In this document: piece by piece, positions 1,211 through 60,132 of the stretch
How positions within the stretch are numbered: the stretch's first letter is position 1
How the letters are laid out: every line of letters starts with the position of its first letter
Source: Calditrichota bacterium
GTDB lineage: Bacteria > CLD3
Assembly: GCA_008501735.1 (NCBI GenBank)
Contig: QQUF01000045.1
Location: 241,732 to 305,731 of the forward strand
Reading direction: 5' to 3'
Length of the DNA: 64,000 nt
Translations under genes and position numbers: made by a program
The notes under the pieces: model-generated
The model's database searches: none
Seen by the model: only the letters and a program-made list of their open reading frames with translations
Told to the model about the DNA's origin: nothing

Positions 1211-1987
1211 ATGTCACTTGCTCAAAGCAAAGTTTTTTATTTCGGTTACAAACTTGACGCTGCCACCGAAAACAAATACAAAGATGAAATTAAAGTCCTT
1301 AAAAAAGAAATTGACGAATTAAATATTGTTAAATTTCCTGACCATAAAGTTACATTGGCGGAAATAAATTGCAGAATCGGAGAAAGATTACTTGCCCTTC
1401 AAGACTTTGGATTAGCCAAAAAATTTATTGAAAAGACAAAAAAAGAACTTCCAACTTATGCTGATTCTCTCGAAAGCCTTTACACTGGAATCTTGTTTTT
1501 AAAAGAGAAAAAATATGAAGAAGCATTAGAGTTTATTATTAATGCCCAAATGAATTTTATTAGAATGAAAGATAGAACTGGGATTGGTTTCGCATCTTTC
1601 AACTTAGCTCTTTGCCATTTAGGGTTAGAACAATACGATTTAGCATTAGACAATCTTTTCATTTCTAATCGCTCACTTTCCACAAAAAGAAAAACAAATA
1701 TTTTGGTAGCAATCAAAATCAATTTGGGCAATTGTTACTACAAATTGAATTTGCCAAGTGAAGCAGAAAACGTTTATGTCGAAGCAATTCAACTTGCAAA
1801 GAAGATTGAGAACACTGAACAATCACAAGCATTTTTATTTTTCAACTTAGGTCTTGTTCAGAAACAAAGAGAAAATTTCGAAAAGTCAAAGAAAAGTTTC
1901 TCAACTGCTCGCGATATTTTTTACAAATTAGACCATTTAAAAGGCATTTCAGCGGTCGACACACAACTTAAAAACTTAGAGAACTAA
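1211..1987 (+). CDS. Tetratricopeptide-repeat protein
   Basis: A 258-residue soluble protein without a signal peptide. From about residue 45 to the end it is a row of helix-turn-helix units with TPR features (for example FLKEKKYEEALEFIINA near 90-110, LGLEQYDLALDNL near 135-150 and LNLPSEAENVYVEAI near 175-190). TPR arrays serve as protein-protein docking surfaces, and no enzymatic domain is attached. The stop codon is one base before the ATG of the rhodanese gene, so the two are very probably co-translated. The partner is unknown. The fold assignment is sure; the role is not. Confidence 0.75.
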   Translation: MSLAQSKVFYFGYKLDAATENKYKDEIKVLKKEIDELNIVKFPDHKVTLAEINCRIGERLLALQDFGLAKKFIEKTKKELPTYADSLESLYTGILFLKEKKYEEALEFIINAQMNFIRMKDRTGIGFASFNLALCHLGLEQYDLALDNLFISNRSLSTKRKTNILVAIKINLGNCYYKLNLPSEAENVYVEAIQLAKKIENTEQSQAFLFFNLGLVQKQRENFEKSKKSFSTARDIFYKLDHLKGISAVDTQLKNLEN

Positions 1988-1988
1988 A

Positions 1989-2321
1989 ATGAAATTACCA
2001 GCAGAATTTGAAATTACTTGTCAAGAGTTAAAATCTAAAATTGATAACGGCGACGACTTTTGCCTCGTTGACGTTCGTGAACCCCACGAATTTGAAATTT
2101 CTAAAATTGAAAATTCTATCAAAATCCCTCTTGGTGATTTACCTTCAAAATTAGAAGAAATACCAAAAGACAAAGAAGTAATTATTCATTGTCGTTCTGG
2201 AGTCAGAAGTGCAAATGCAGTAATGTTTATGTCTCAAGCAGGTTACACCAATATTAAAAATTTAGTTGGTGGAATTAATTACTGGGCTCAAACTATTGAC
2301 ACAAATTTACCTGTTTACTAA
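1989..2321 (+). CDS. Rhodanese-like sulfurtransferase domain protein
   Basis: A 110-residue single-domain rhodanese. Residues 25-50 hold the conserved LVDVREPHEFEISKI segment, and the active-site loop HCRSGVRS puts the catalytic cysteine at about residue 68. This is the six-residue loop typical of sulfurtransferases. Such proteins carry a persulfide on the cysteine and pass sulfur to acceptors, or detoxify thiols; the true acceptor cannot be read from sequence. No signal peptide is seen, so it is cytoplasmic. It starts one base after the TPR gene, and its stop is 9 bases before the TTG start of the HMG-CoA reductase gene in the same frame. Confidence 0.88.
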   Translation: MKLPAEFEITCQELKSKIDNGDDFCLVDVREPHEFEISKIENSIKIPLGDLPSKLEEIPKDKEVIIHCRSGVRSANAVMFMSQAGYTNIKNLVGGINYWAQTIDTNLPVY

Positions 2322-2330
2322 ACTCCAATT

Positions 2331-3500
2331 TTGACTTCAAATAAAATCCCACGAAATCCGCAAGACGATTATTCTGACGCAATTGTTAATAATCGTCTCA
2401 GTTTTCTAACTGAAAAAACAGGCACAAACTTTAGCTACCTCAAAGGGAAACTTGTCGAGAACTCTTTTGCAAAAGGAAACGTTGAAAATTTTATTGGTTA
2501 CGCTCAAGTTCCAATTGGAATTGCTGGACCTTTAAAAATTAATGGAGACTTTGCACAAGGTGATTTTTACGTTCCCTTAGCAACAAATGAAGGTGCAATG
2601 GTTGCATCTTTTTCAAGAGGAATGAAAATCGCAAGCCTGTCAGGTGGAATTACAACAAAAGTCCTTTTAGACCTTTACCGTGTAAACCCAATGTTAATTT
2701 TTGATTCACTTTCAAGTGCAACAAAAGCAAAAATTTGGATTGAAGAAAATTTCAACTCTTTACAAAAGGAAGTTGAAAAGACTTCAAACTTTTGCAGACT
2801 TGAAAAACAAAAGATTACAATTCTTGGTCGAAGATTAATACTTTCACTCGCTTTCAAAACTGGCGATGCTTTAGGTGCAAATATGGCAACCAAAGCAACT
2901 CAAGTAGTTTTAGATTTCTTAGTAAAAAATTTGGAAATAGAAAATTACTTGATTCACGGTCAGGATTTGGAAAAAAGACCAAGTGGAAGGAATTTGATTG
3001 AAGGAAGAGGAAAATTCGTTACAGCTGAAATCAAAATTAGCAAAGATACTTTAGAGGAAAAATTAAAAGTAACCGCTAAACAGCTTTCAGACGTTTGCGA
3101 ATCTTACTTCATTGGTTACTCTCACCTTCTAACAATGTCTAATCATTTACAAACTGCAAATTTACTCGCAGCAATTTTTATCGCTTGCGGGCAAGACGTT
3201 GCTTACGTAGCTGAAAGCATTGTCGGAACAATGTCATTCGAGGACTGTGAAGACGGAAGTTTAATCGCTTCGTTGACTTTGCCAGCTTTACTTGTTGCAA
3301 CTGTTGGAGGTGGAACAAACAAAGGAACTTCTGCCGAATGTCTTACAATTATGGATTGCTTGGGAAAAGGTAAAGCGAGGAAATTTGCTGAAATAGTTTG
3401 TGCTTCTGCACTTTGTGGCGAACTTTCATTGGCTGTTGCAATGATTAAAAAAGATTTGGTTGACGCTCACGAAAAGCTAAATCGAAATCGTCCAAGTTAA
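2331..3500 (+). CDS. Hydroxymethylglutaryl-CoA reductase (class I-like)
   Basis: A 389-residue soluble enzyme that reduces HMG-CoA to mevalonate with NAD(P)H. All four catalytic positions of the family are visible: Glu52 in VENFIGYAQVPIGIAGPL, the lysine in LEKRPSGRNLIEGRGK (about 212-224), Asp289 in GQDVAYVAES and His380 in the C-terminal HEKLNRNR motif. The nucleotide-binding GDALGANMATKATQ segment is also present. These motifs follow class I enzymes, but the sterol-sensing membrane part of animal HMGR is absent. The start is probably TTG at 2331: the frame is closed by the rhodanese stop just upstream and no ATG precedes the conserved core. The same window encodes IspE of the alternative MEP route. 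Confidence 0.9.
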   Translation: MTSNKIPRNPQDDYSDAIVNNRLSFLTEKTGTNFSYLKGKLVENSFAKGNVENFIGYAQVPIGIAGPLKINGDFAQGDFYVPLATNEGAMVASFSRGMKIASLSGGITTKVLLDLYRVNPMLIFDSLSSATKAKIWIEENFNSLQKEVEKTSNFCRLEKQKITILGRRLILSLAFKTGDALGANMATKATQVVLDFLVKNLEIENYLIHGQDLEKRPSGRNLIEGRGKFVTAEIKISKDTLEEKLKVTAKQLSDVCESYFIGYSHLLTMSNHLQTANLLAAIFIACGQDVAYVAESIVGTMSFEDCEDGSLIASLTLPALLVATVGGGTNKGTSAECLTIMDCLGKGKARKFAEIVCASALCGELSLAVAMIKKDLVDAHEKLNRNRPS

Positions 3501-55956: not shown

Positions 55957-56223
55957 ATGAAGAACCTCAACAAAAAACATAAAAAGATTTTAGCGGAAAT
56001 TTTCTTTGAACCAATGAAATCGAACGTTTTGTGGAGCGACATTGAAAAGTTGTTCATCGCCTTAGGTGCTGAAATTAGCGAAGGAAGAGGTTCAAGAGTC
56101 AGATGTTTCCTAAACGGAGTTCGGGCAGTTTTTCATAGACCACATCCGCAGAAAGAAACTGATAAAGGTGCATTAAAATCTGTAAGAAAATTTTTAAATC
56201 AAGCAGGAGTTAAAAATGCTTAA
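55957..56223 (+). CDS. hicA: HicA-family mRNA interferase toxin
   Basis: An 88-residue toxin with the dsRBD-like HicA fold. The sequence KHKKILAEIFFEPMKSNVLW leads to the core LGAEISEGRGSRVRCFLNG and RAVFHRPHPQKETDKGAL (about 62-79), containing the catalytic histidine of the family, and VRKFLNQAGV at the end. HicA cleaves mRNA independent of the ribosome. The stop region overlaps hicB by 8 bases, the usual toxin-first order. No Shine-Dalgarno is obvious. Confidence 0.92.
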   Translation: MKNLNKKHKKILAEIFFEPMKSNVLWSDIEKLFIALGAEISEGRGSRVRCFLNGVRAVFHRPHPQKETDKGALKSVRKFLNQAGVKNA

Positions 56224-56536
56224 TTACAAAGGCTATCAGGGAAAAGTAATTTTCGATGACGAAGCAAAAATTTTTCACGGAGAAATAATTAACACACGAG
56301 ATGTGATTACTTTTCAAGGAAAAAGCGTTGATGAAATTGAAATTGCTTTCCGCGAGTCAATTGACGATTACTTAGAATTTTGTAAGGAAAGAGGCGAACA
56401 ACCTGAAAAACCTTTTTCGGGAAAGTTTGTTTTGAGAATGTCTCCAAACCTTCACCAAAAAATTTTTGTAAGAGCTTCGAAAGCTGGAAAAAGCCTTAAC
56501 AAATGGGTTGTTGAAAAATTAGAATCCGTTACCTAA
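56216..56536 (+). CDS. hicB: HicB-family antitoxin
   Basis: A 106-residue antitoxin. The N-terminal partial RNase H-like fold is present (YKGYQGKVIFDDEAKIFHG, ISFRES-type segment EIEIAFRESIDDYLEFC). The C-terminal ribbon-helix-helix DNA-binding domain has GKFVLRMSPNLHQKI and RASKAGKSLNKWVVEKLE. The protein neutralises HicA and represses its own operon. It starts 8 bases before the hicA stop. Confidence 0.93.
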   Translation: MLNYKGYQGKVIFDDEAKIFHGEIINTRDVITFQGKSVDEIEIAFRESIDDYLEFCKERGEQPEKPFSGKFVLRMSPNLHQKIFVRASKAGKSLNKWVVEKLESVT

Positions 56537-56636
56537 ATGTATAATTTTCCCGAATTCAACTTTTCTTAAAAATTTTTTGCAACCATTTTGAACTTTGTGC
56601 ATTGTGATAACAAATGCTTAACAAAATACGGTTCTG

Positions 56637-57245
56637 ATGGAAAGTTTAAAATTACATAGCTTCAAACGACAACAACAATTTGAGACAGAAAATTTGCTCG
56701 ATGAACAAGAAATTGTAAAAAATGCAAAGAATGATCCAAGTTTTTTTGGAATTCTTTACGATAGAAATTACGACAGAATTTTCAATTACATCCTTAAAAG
56801 AGTCTCAAATGTGAGTTTGGCTGAAGACTTAACTTCCAACACATTTTTTAAAGCATTAGAGAAAATCAGCACTTTTAATTGGGAAGGAATTCCCTTTAGT
56901 GCTTGGCTTTACAGAATTGCAACGAATGAAATCAGAATGCATTTTCGTAAAAGAAAACTTCTGAAGTTCTTTGCAATTGATGACTACAAAGAAAAAATTA
57001 AAGATGACAAAAACTGTGAAAATGAATTGATTAAGGCAGAAGAAGAATGGGCGAAAAACCAAAAATTTCTTCAAGTTACTGCTGAGATTCAAAAACTTTC
57101 AATCAAGTACCAAGAAGTAATTGCACTAAGGTATTTTGAAGAAAAATCAATTCGCGAAATTTCAGGAATCCTTAACAAAAGTGAAGGAACTGTAAAATCA
57201 CTAATTCACAGAGGTTTGCAAAAATTGGAAAAAGAAATTAATTAA
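56637..57245 (+). CDS. RNA polymerase sigma factor, ECF/sigma-70-like
   Basis: A 202-residue sigma factor. Region 2 lies at about 35-110, with ILYDRNYDRIFNYILKRVSN, LAEDLTSNTFFKAL (region 2.2-2.3) and SAWLYRIATNEIRMHFRKRK (region 2.4). Region 4 lies at about 145-200, with LSIKYQEVIALRYFEEKS, REISGILNKSEGTVKSLIHRGLQKL. An extra ~35-residue polar N-terminal extension and a charged linker are present. There is no clear Shine-Dalgarno. The next gene, 66 bases downstream, encodes a membrane protein with a cytosolic N-terminus and a T9SS-type tail, its probable regulator. Confidence 0.88.
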   Translation: MESLKLHSFKRQQQFETENLLDEQEIVKNAKNDPSFFGILYDRNYDRIFNYILKRVSNVSLAEDLTSNTFFKALEKISTFNWEGIPFSAWLYRIATNEIRMHFRKRKLLKFFAIDDYKEKIKDDKNCENELIKAEEEWAKNQKFLQVTAEIQKLSIKYQEVIALRYFEEKSIREISGILNKSEGTVKSLIHRGLQKLEKEIN

Positions 57246-57311
57246 CAAAACTTCTAAAATTTAGCAAGTCTTGGAGCTCCGACTTGGAAAGTTTTAGATG
57301 AGGTAATCAAA

Positions 57312-58757
57312 ATGAAAACTAAAAAAAATATCAAAGAATCTCTTCCCGAAGATGTTAATCTTCATTTCAATAAAATGAAACTTAGAAGAGAGCTTTTGAA
57401 TTCGGAAAATTTTAACACAACAATCGAAAGGTCTAAAATTATGAACAGCCAAAAACTTGGTTTAGTATTTGGAGCGTTTTTACTCTTTTTACTCGTCGGT
57501 GGATTTCTCTTAAATGACAAATTCAACACAGAATTAACAGCAAAAGAAGTGCTTACCAAAGCAGAGAATTTTTACAATACAGTTGAAAATGCAATCGGAA
57601 AAATTCATTACCAAAAGATGGTCATTTCTAATAATTATGCCAAAGAAGCAGAAAAAATTACGATTGAAAGATGGACTGATAAGAAAAATGACAGAATGAA
57701 AATTGTAACTACTTTAGATGGTGTTGAACCTGTAACGAACGTTCAAATTGGTGACCAAAATTTTGCAAGTGTTGCTTCTGAAAACGGACCAATTGTTAAA
57801 ATAATCTCTTCAGGTAAAACTCAAGAGAAACATCACGGAAAAGAAGGTGTTGCTGTGAAAATGATGAAAATCGAACTTGATGACGAAGACGGTGAAATCA
57901 CTGAAGAAAGATTGCAGGAAATTAAAGCACAACTCAAACAAAAATGGGTTAGCAAAAACGGAGAAGAAATCAAATTAGACGAAATGAAAAATGGCGAAAA
58001 CGTTTTTGTAAACATTGACGAAGACATTGAACTTAGCGAAAATGGTGAAGAAAAAAGAATCGTCAAAAAAACAATGGTTATGGAAAGCTCTCCTTACGAT
58101 AATACAAAATCTCCAAAACAACTTTTGGAAGAAGCAAAATCTAACCCAAATATGAAATACATTGGCAAAACAAGAGATGCTATTTTGGAAAGAGACTTTG
58201 AAGTCATTGAAACTTTCGGAAAAATCGTAACAGTCGAAAACGGAGTTAGAACAGAAGGTAAAGTTAAAGTTACTTTGGAATTTGATTCACACGACTTCAA
58301 ACTCTACAGAAGCACAACTGAAAATGAACTCGATGGAACAAAAGAAGTCATTACTTTTGAAGTTGACAGGCTTTCTGAAATGAACGATTCAATTTTCTCA
58401 ACTGAAGGTTTGAACGAGCAAAAAGTTGTTACTAAAAGAATTGGTGGTTTGACAAAAGAAAACTTGAAAGCAGTTCCAAGTCATTTTGAATTGAAACAAA
58501 ATTTCCCAAATCCATTCAACCCAACAACAAACATTCCTTACGAATTAAAAGAAAACGGAAATGTTGCTCTTAAAGTTTACAACACTAAAGGACAACTTGT
58601 AAAAACTTTGGTTGATAAAGCTCAAAACGCAGGTTCACATTCTATAAAATGGAATGGAACTGACGAAAACGGAAGCCAAGTTTCTTCTGGAGTTTACCTT
58701 TACGAATTGAATGTTGACGGAAATGTTGAAGCTAAAAAAATGAATTTCATTAAATAA
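57312..58757 (+). CDS. Membrane protein with RseB-like domain and T9SS-type tail; putative sigma regulator
   Basis: A 481-residue protein. The first ~48 residues are cytoplasmic, charged and helical (MKTKKNIKESLPEDV, KMKLRRELLN). One membrane helix follows (about 49-67, GLVFGAFLLFLLVGGFLL), and there is no ordinary signal peptide. The periplasmic part starts with TAKEVLTKAENFYNTVENAI and KITIERWTDKKNDRMKIVTT (about 75-135), resembling RseB/LolA-like sensors. A charged, lysine/glutamate-rich middle follows. The last ~90 residues are a standard T9SS domain ([27 protein letters not shown]). GAGG lies 7 bases before the ATG. Position behind a sigma factor and topology suggest an anti-sigma-like role; that is inference. 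A plain T9SS cargo with an unusual N-terminus is the alternative. Confidence 0.7.
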   Translation: MKTKKNIKESLPEDVNLHFNKMKLRRELLNSENFNTTIERSKIMNSQKLGLVFGAFLLFLLVGGFLLNDKFNTELTAKEVLTKAENFYNTVENAIGKIHYQKMVISNNYAKEAEKITIERWTDKKNDRMKIVTTLDGVEPVTNVQIGDQNFASVASENGPIVKIISSGKTQEKHHGKEGVAVKMMKIELDDEDGEITEERLQEIKAQLKQKWVSKNGEEIKLDEMKNGENVFVNIDEDIELSENGEEKRIVKKTMVMESSPYDNTKSPKQLLEEAKSNPNMKYIGKTRDAILERDFEVIETFGKIVTVENGVRTEGKVKVTLEFDSHDFKLYRSTTENELDGTKEVITFEVDRLSEMNDSIFSTEGLNEQKVVTKRIGGLTKENLKAVPSHFELKQNFPNPFNPTTNIPYELKENGNVALKVYNTKGQLVKTLVDKAQNAGSHSIKWNGTDENGSQVSSGVYLYELNVDGNVEAKKMNFIK

Positions 58758-58790
58758 TTTTCCCTCCTCCAATCCCATCACAATTAGTTA

Positions 58791-58828
58791 AAAACGGTAG
58801 CAGTTATTGGTTCTGCTACCGTTTTTTT
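58791..58828 (+). terminator. Rho-independent terminator of the sigma/regulator operon
   Basis: AAAACGGTAGCAG (58791-58803) pairs with CTGCTACCGTTTT (58813-58825) around a 9-base loop and is followed by more T. It lies 34 bases after the stop of the regulator-like gene. Confidence 0.92.
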
Positions 58829-58902: not shown

Positions 58903-60132
58903 ATGATTCACTTTAAGAATTTACATCCTTTTGCACTTATCATTTCTCTCATATCTACTTCATTTGCACAAGTCAATGAATTTAAATTAGTTGCAAGTGA
59001 TGGTGCTAAAAATCACTATTTTGGAAAATCTGTAGCCATTGATAACGAATATGCTGTAATAGGAGCTTCTTGGACTGAAGACAGAAAAGGTTCAGTATAT
59101 ATTTTTTCTAAGGATGAAAATATGTGGATTGAAGAAACTAAATTAGTTGCAAGTGATGGAGAAACCGAAGATTATTTTGGTGAAGAAGTTGATGTAAGTG
59201 GAGATTTTGTTATTGTAGGCTCACCTTATGACGATGGTTTATACAAAGATTCAGGCTCAGCATTTATTTTCCACAGAACTGGTGGTAAATGGACTCTACA
59301 GGAAAAACTAAATTCTGATGCCTATTTTTCAAGAAATAATTTTGGTCAATCTGTATCAATTGATGGTAATTATGCAATAATAGGTGCTAGTGGAGATAAC
59401 GATGTACCTGAGGGTTCTGGTTCAGCTTACATTTTTGTAAGAAGTGGAACTTCTTGGAACCAACAAGCAAAACTTACTGCAAAAATTCCTCAAAAAAATG
59501 CACATTTTGGTACATCTGTTTCAATTAGTAATAATTATGCAATAATAGGTGCTCCATTTGAAAATTATTCAAATAAAGAAAATGAGTCTGTTGGAGCTGT
59601 TTATGTTTTTAAAAGAATTGGTAAAAAATGGTTACAAACCACAAAGTTGTCTGCAAAAGGGACAAGAAGTTCAAGTTTTGGGAAAGAAGTTTCAATTAGT
59701 GGAGATAACATTATTGTTTCAGCAAAAACTACGTTTAAAGAAAATTCAATTGGTGCTGTTTATATTTTTCACAAAAATCAAAATAAATGGTTGTTAGAAT
59801 CAAAACTAATATCTGAACAATTAAAAGAGACCAATGCTAAAATAAATAGAGTTTTTTTTGGTAGTTCCGTTACTATAAATGAAAATTATGCAATTGTTGG
59901 AGCCATGTACAGTGGATTTAAGGAAAAAACAACAGGATCAGCATCTGTTTATCATCGAGTAAATAAAAAATGGTTGCTTTTATCAATTATTCGTTCATCA
60001 GACATAGCTCCATTGGACTATTTTGGTTGTGCAGCTTCAATAAGTAAAAATTACTATATCATTGGAGCTGCTTGGAAAGAAAGTAAGGAGTTTGGTACTG
60101 GCTCAGCATATATTTATCCAGTTAGAGAATAA
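58903..60132 (+). CDS. Secreted FG-GAP seven-bladed propeller protein
   Basis: A 409-residue exported protein with signal peptide ending SLISTSFAQ. It consists of seven FG-GAP-like repeats, each with a YFGxSVxIxxxYAIIGA strand pair: YFGKSVAIDNEYAVIGAS, YFGEEVDVSGDFVIVGSP, NFGQSVSIDGNYAIIGAS, HFGTSVSISNNYAIIGAP, SFGKEVSISGDNIIVSAK, FFGSSVTINENYAIVGAM and YFGCAASISKNYYIIGAA. Each repeat continues with a GSAYIF-type strand. The fold is a beta-propeller as in integrin alpha chains, but the calcium DxDxDG loops are weak or missing. No T9SS tail is present. Its partner or ligand is unknown. Confidence 0.85.
   Translation: MIHFKNLHPFALIISLISTSFAQVNEFKLVASDGAKNHYFGKSVAIDNEYAVIGASWTEDRKGSVYIFSKDENMWIEETKLVASDGETEDYFGEEVDVSGDFVIVGSPYDDGLYKDSGSAFIFHRTGGKWTLQEKLNSDAYFSRNNFGQSVSIDGNYAIIGASGDNDVPEGSGSAYIFVRSGTSWNQQAKLTAKIPQKNAHFGTSVSISNNYAIIGAPFENYSNKENESVGAVYVFKRIGKKWLQTTKLSAKGTRSSSFGKEVSISGDNIIVSAKTTFKENSIGAVYIFHKNQNKWLLESKLISEQLKETNAKINRVFFGSSVTINENYAIVGAMYSGFKEKTTGSASVYHRVNKKWLLLSIIRSSDIAPLDYFGCAASISKNYYIIGAAWKESKEFGTGSAYIYPVRE

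Follow-up and report, generated by a model that had tools for sequence, protein, structure and literature searches.

A probable membrane anti-sigma factor bearing a T9SS C-terminal sorting domain, paired with an ECF sigma factor in a Calditrichota bacterium

Sigma factors held at the membrane: known systems

Class II anti-sigma domains are shorter than 50 amino acids, and in CnrY the domain is made up of two helices that wrap around the sigma factor (PMC7406223). The CnrH/CnrY system resembles the locus described here, as it also consists of an ECF sigma factor and a one-helix partner with fewer than 50 cytoplasmic residues, and CnrH (4cxf) is among the PDB matches of our sigma factor (E=8e-6). 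CnrY differs in that our partner protein carries a large ectodomain and a T9SS C-terminal sorting domain (CTD) after the helix. RsiV and RsiP are likewise single-helix anti-sigma factors with an extracytoplasmic sensor, and signal peptidase acts as their site-1 protease, using a signal-peptidase-type site after the helix (PMC8844934). However, both come from Bacillus and have different ectodomains, and neither carries a T9SS tag. The closest precedent for a CTD-bearing protein linked to an ECF sigma factor is PorA of P. gingivalis, which acts upstream of SigP via unknown intermediates, with sigP being autoregulated (PMC7712824). Unlike our partner protein, PorA has a signal peptide, is found at the cell surface, and acts upstream of PorY/PorX, and it is neither an anti-sigma factor nor anchored in the inner membrane. 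We found no paper on CTD-bearing anti-sigma factors.

The locus lies in a 64,000-nucleotide stretch of DNA (the window), and it brings together a sorting domain and a probable anti-sigma domain in one polypeptide. Taken as a whole, it is probably best explained as an autoregulated ECF sigma/membrane anti-sigma pair whose sensor has been given a T9SS CTD, although this full reading is held with less confidence than some of its parts. To our knowledge, the feedback from T9SS activity to gene expression is poorly understood. If the reading is true, the protein would draw a direct line, through one molecule, from the T9SS to transcription, and it would rank among the rare proteins that bear a T9SS tag while anchored in the inner membrane. 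The ECF sigma factor would then possibly be wired to the cell's own secretion machine via the secretion tag of its inhibitor.

The sigma factor gene and its transcription unit

The initial annotation placed an ECF-like sigma factor ahead of a membrane protein, and both open reading frames are found on the forward strand, with a 202-amino acid ECF sigma factor encoded at 56637-57245 and a 481-amino acid protein at 57312-58757. The sigma factor scores above the cut-offs of PF04542 (E=1.7e-16; 60 bits, cut-off 24), PF08281 (E=5.9e-16; 58 bits, cut-off 25.7), and TIGR02937 (87 bits, cut-off 42.9). Regions 2 and 4 are both present in this sigma protein of about 200 residues, which places it among the ECF factors, in agreement with its clade in the sigma tree. 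Immediately upstream of the gene, a HicA/HicB toxin-antitoxin pair is encoded at 55957-56536 (PF07927, PF05534).

The sigma and partner genes share one reading frame, and the only stop codons between them are TAA. The gap separating them is 66 nt long, versus only about 18-20 nt in relatives, and it contains a forward-strand hairpin at 57253-57298 with no T run after it (RNA fold of 57240-57325, -17.9 kcal/mol, z -2.7). This hairpin could adjust the ratio of sigma to anti-sigma protein. The unit is closed by an intrinsic terminator at 58790-58826, also on the forward strand, whose hairpin has a 14-bp stem and a T tail (-19.9 kcal/mol, z -6.2). A terminator after both genes had indeed been proposed at 58791-58828, and the consensus terminator scanner missed it because the loop is 9 nt long. 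Further downstream and on the same strand as the pair, 58903-60132 encodes a protein with seven FG-GAP_2 repeats.

Conservation of the pair and of its promoter

Nine genomes of the phylum were compared, with the sigma factor as the query. The same pair is present in G004, G006, and G008, which come from another family in the same class and phylum. The sigma factors of these genomes are 42-43% identical to the focal one, far above nearly all other ECF matches, and each is immediately followed by a one-helix protein of about 350 amino acids, with the G008 copy cut by the contig end. The closest genome, G001, which belongs to the same family as the focal genome, has no sigma match of this kind. 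The ortholog partners align with the N-terminus and helix of the focal partner and on to about residue 105 (BLASTP of residues 1-105 against an ortholog partner, E=2e-5; hhalign, E=4.7e-6), and past this point hhalign detects no homology. The motifs LPE-V, KLRR-LLN, and RS-I are invariant in the N-termini. When the single N-terminal sequence was searched against the whole genome collection there were no matches, an alignment query returned G008 again and nothing else, and the anti-sigma profile found no further members in sets of 386 and 132 genomes. A weak match to this profile in G084 was rejected, as it has a stop codon and a frame of 37 amino acids.

A promoter-like block, TTTTGCAACC-N14-GCATT, lies on the forward strand at 56575-56603 and is presumed to be an autoregulated ECF promoter. 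The block is identical in sequence and spacing before all four sigma genes (focal, G004, G006, and G008), and its flanks have diverged. The exact block occurs once in each of the four pair-bearing genomes, at the pair's own operon, and it is absent from G001. Since it is unchanged and found only there, the sigma factor probably transcribes its own operon, and going by these sequence comparisons we consider autoregulation to be very likely. With up to 2 mismatches, the block is about as frequent as the reversed pattern, and the matches inspected are intragenic. The regulon search with this block gave no target besides the operon itself and no T9SS gene, although a looser promoter could escape detection. 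The initial annotation had named a lack of the pair in relatives as an argument against its reading; the pair is in fact conserved in three other genomes, promoter block included.

A short N-terminal domain ahead of a single helix

The first 48 residues of the partner (57312-57455, forward strand), which include LPEDVNLHFNKMKLRRELLN, form a polar, short, putative cytoplasmic anti-sigma domain, and they are the best conserved part among relatives. A single transmembrane helix follows at residues 49-67 (57456-57512, forward strand), aligned in the relatives and located just where it had been predicted; by hydropathy, the hydrophobic segment spans residues 48-69 and peaks at 3.1. The charges suggest an N-in orientation. 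With 48 residues before the helix and no Cys, hence no zinc motif, the domain is of class II size. In a PDB search, the N-terminal profile matched no anti-sigma chain, CnrY included, which for so short a peptide says little.

Among 386 genomes sampled across the domain, G342 and G071 each encode two sigma factors that are 38-48% identical to the focal one, and G198 and G248 encode one each. In the sigma tree, these rows from distant phyla group with the focal sigma factor (support 93/87). The proteins encoded beside them are likewise membrane proteins that begin with a short polar stretch before the helix: in the G342 and G071 partners, a single helix leads into a large ectodomain of a different type, the G198 partner has several helices, and the G248 partner has a short ectodomain. 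When a profile made from these distant N-termini, excluding the focal protein and its orthologs, was run against 706 N-termini, the orthologs and the G248 protein ranked highest; the focal protein is not among the matches listed for this profile and connects to it through its orthologs. Because the pair and the N-terminus recur in three genomes and in the sigma clade of distant phyla, residues 1 to about 48 are very probably an anti-sigma domain and not the artefact of a wrong start, and we are highly confident that the two proteins are a cognate sigma/anti-sigma pair. The N-in, one-helix anti-sigma layout first suggested for the partner is thus in line with the N-terminal motif, pair, and promoter block conserved in three genomes, and with the similar partners in distant phyla.

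The sigma clade also takes in a second pair from the focal genome, L067 (G000:C8:68900-75000), in which the ECF sigma factor has a 349-amino acid one-helix partner without a CTD, as well as its G001 counterpart (L074, G001:C184). Elsewhere in the focal genome, an ECF sigma match (G000:C48:177472-178056) has an in-frame TAA within the aligned stretch. At the distant loci L197 and L199 (G342 and G071), the partner's ectodomain resembles the secreted protein encoded by the following gene, which in L197 is CIA30-like, and this resemblance hints at a carbohydrate-like ligand.

The partner might also start at M44, in which case it would not be an anti-sigma factor but an ordinary T9SS cargo with a signal peptide, found downstream of an ECF gene by chance. 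M44 does lie 5 residues ahead of the hydrophobic stretch, with AAAGG about 10 nt upstream. However, the 43 preceding residues hold the part that is best conserved in three other genomes, and the pair has a conserved promoter block. The late start was rejected because of the conservation of the residues before it, and a chance neighbour of this kind is highly improbable.

A sorting domain without a signal peptide

After the helix, the partner has a presumed periplasmic ectodomain (residues 68-395; 57513-58496, forward strand), for which homology to relatives can be demonstrated only up to about residue 105, and then a T9SS type A C-terminal sorting domain (residues 396-481; 58497-58754, forward strand). 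Like T9SS type A cargo, the protein has a complete sorting domain, as the initial annotation had held, with scores above the cut-offs for TIGR04183 (E=1.3e-8; 34.7 bits, cut-off 23) and for Por_Secre_tail PF18962 (29 bits, cut-off 27), and it also matches FlgD_ig (PF13860, E=1.1e-11). As the whole-protein search matched only CTDs, the CTD was removed from the query. Ahead of residue 396, Pfam and TIGRFAM-type model searches found no family match. The ectodomain had been described as RseB/LolA-like, a likeness for which we found no support: it has no Pfam, PDB, or LolA match, and its hhalign scores against the LolA proteins of the phylum resemble those of the reversed control. Using two-row alignments, AlphaFold gave a mean pLDDT of 32 for the ectodomain, and 31-40 across the anti-sigma N-terminus in a single-chain co-fold of sigma and anti-sigma, values too low for either model to be usable.

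For comparison, 40 CTD proteins from the focal genome were sampled (35 fetched, four others in the window, and the focal protein), and their N-termini were read from the most upstream start. A signal-peptide-like N-terminus, meaning a hydrophobic stretch that starts in roughly the first 30 residues, or a short one that narrowly misses the threshold, was found in 39 of the 40, and the focal protein is the sole exception. The partner therefore differs from T9SS type A cargo: it has the sorting domain, and its genome has a T9SS, but a cleavable N-terminal signal peptide is missing. This absence had been noted from the outset, and it fits with the sole hydrophobic stretch being at 48-69 and with the conservation of the residues before it.

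The helix could nonetheless belong to a signal peptide whose N-region is long. In that case signal peptidase would cut near A77, the ectodomain and CTD would become T9SS cargo, and the N-terminal stub would be the regulator, with cleavage, whether constitutive or induced, freeing the sigma factor. This would reconcile the T9SS tag with an anchored precursor, all four relatives share the post-helix A77 (within SSA in the orthologs and LTA in the focal protein), and both RsiP and RsiV are cut at site 1 by signal peptidase (PMC8844934). The focal site, however, is about 10 residues beyond the helix, which is long, and its -3 position is Leu, and A77 may merely begin the first helix of the ectodomain. 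A Leu at -3, well past a long helix, makes for a poor signal peptidase site. We consider such a signal peptide to be rather unlikely, and it is a special form of the anchored-sensor reading preferred here, with signal peptidase as the site-1 protease.

Origin of the sorting domain

None of the other partners across the sigma clade has a CTD, and this includes the orthologs, of which the two complete ones end without it. At 80 other ECF loci, the CTD profile found no CTD in the gene directly after the sigma gene, and in a few loci there is a CTD gene further off. Since the CTD is missing from all relatives and from the gene after the sigma gene at these 80 loci, the best reading of the sequences is that it was a late addition in the focal lineage, known from one assembly. 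At one locus in the focal genome, L063 (G000:C17), a 370-amino acid CTD protein encoded at 1955-3065 comes third after another ECF sigma factor, behind that factor's short partner and a small protein that is exported.

The CTD could be a neutral hitch-hiker on an ordinary sigma/anti-sigma pair, fused from the abundant CTD genes (241 first-look candidates in the focal genome) and either serving as a stable Ig-like cap or idle. All of the relatives lack it and are presumably functional, and the fusion is seen in one genome only. Yet there is no visible decay: the motifs are kept, curated cut-offs are exceeded, and the domain aligns well with the CTDs of neighbouring cargo proteins. A working but useless tag on an anchored protein would moreover be expected to disturb the translocon. 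Neutrality seems improbable, if by no means far-fetched.

A possible link to the T9SS

In the mechanism we favour, the first 48 or so residues of the anti-sigma factor would keep the sigma factor at the inner membrane, with one helix spanning the membrane and the periplasmic part acting as the sensor. By comparison with known systems, regulated proteolysis at site 1 and then at site 2 would release the sigma factor, which would then start transcription of the operon at the TTTTGCAACC-N14-GCATT promoter. Once the T9SS CTD was appended to the sensor's C-terminus in the focal lineage, the periplasmic part would have become recognisable by the T9SS. Either the anchored sensor would dock at the T9SS, protease access then depending on whether the T9SS is busy or blocked, or the ectodomain would be exported following site-1 cleavage. 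To pass through the T9SS translocon, a membrane-anchored protein needs to be cut, which weighs against the mechanism.

That the CTD truly engages the T9SS is plausible, although judging from the sequences we would stop just short of calling it probable. It is more doubtful that the pair senses the state of the T9SS. Equally tentative is the idea that the CTD serves as bait in an inner-membrane anti-sigma factor, in which a free, busy, or blocked T9SS would decide on cleavage and the ectodomain might be exported as cargo. The T9SS-blockage sensor initially put forward is a reasonable hypothesis, and a T9SS-linked input is possible. SprA is present in the focal genome and in all nine genomes of the phylum, hence also where the orthologs without a CTD occur. 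Because those orthologs lack the CTD despite SprA, and because the promoter block is found only at the pair's own operon, a T9SS-stress regulon is so far unsupported. Within the window itself, 154-1119 encodes a T9SS protein of the PorV/PorQ family, which matches the PorQ model with E=2e-45, below that model's cut-off, and scores above the cut-off for PorV_fam.
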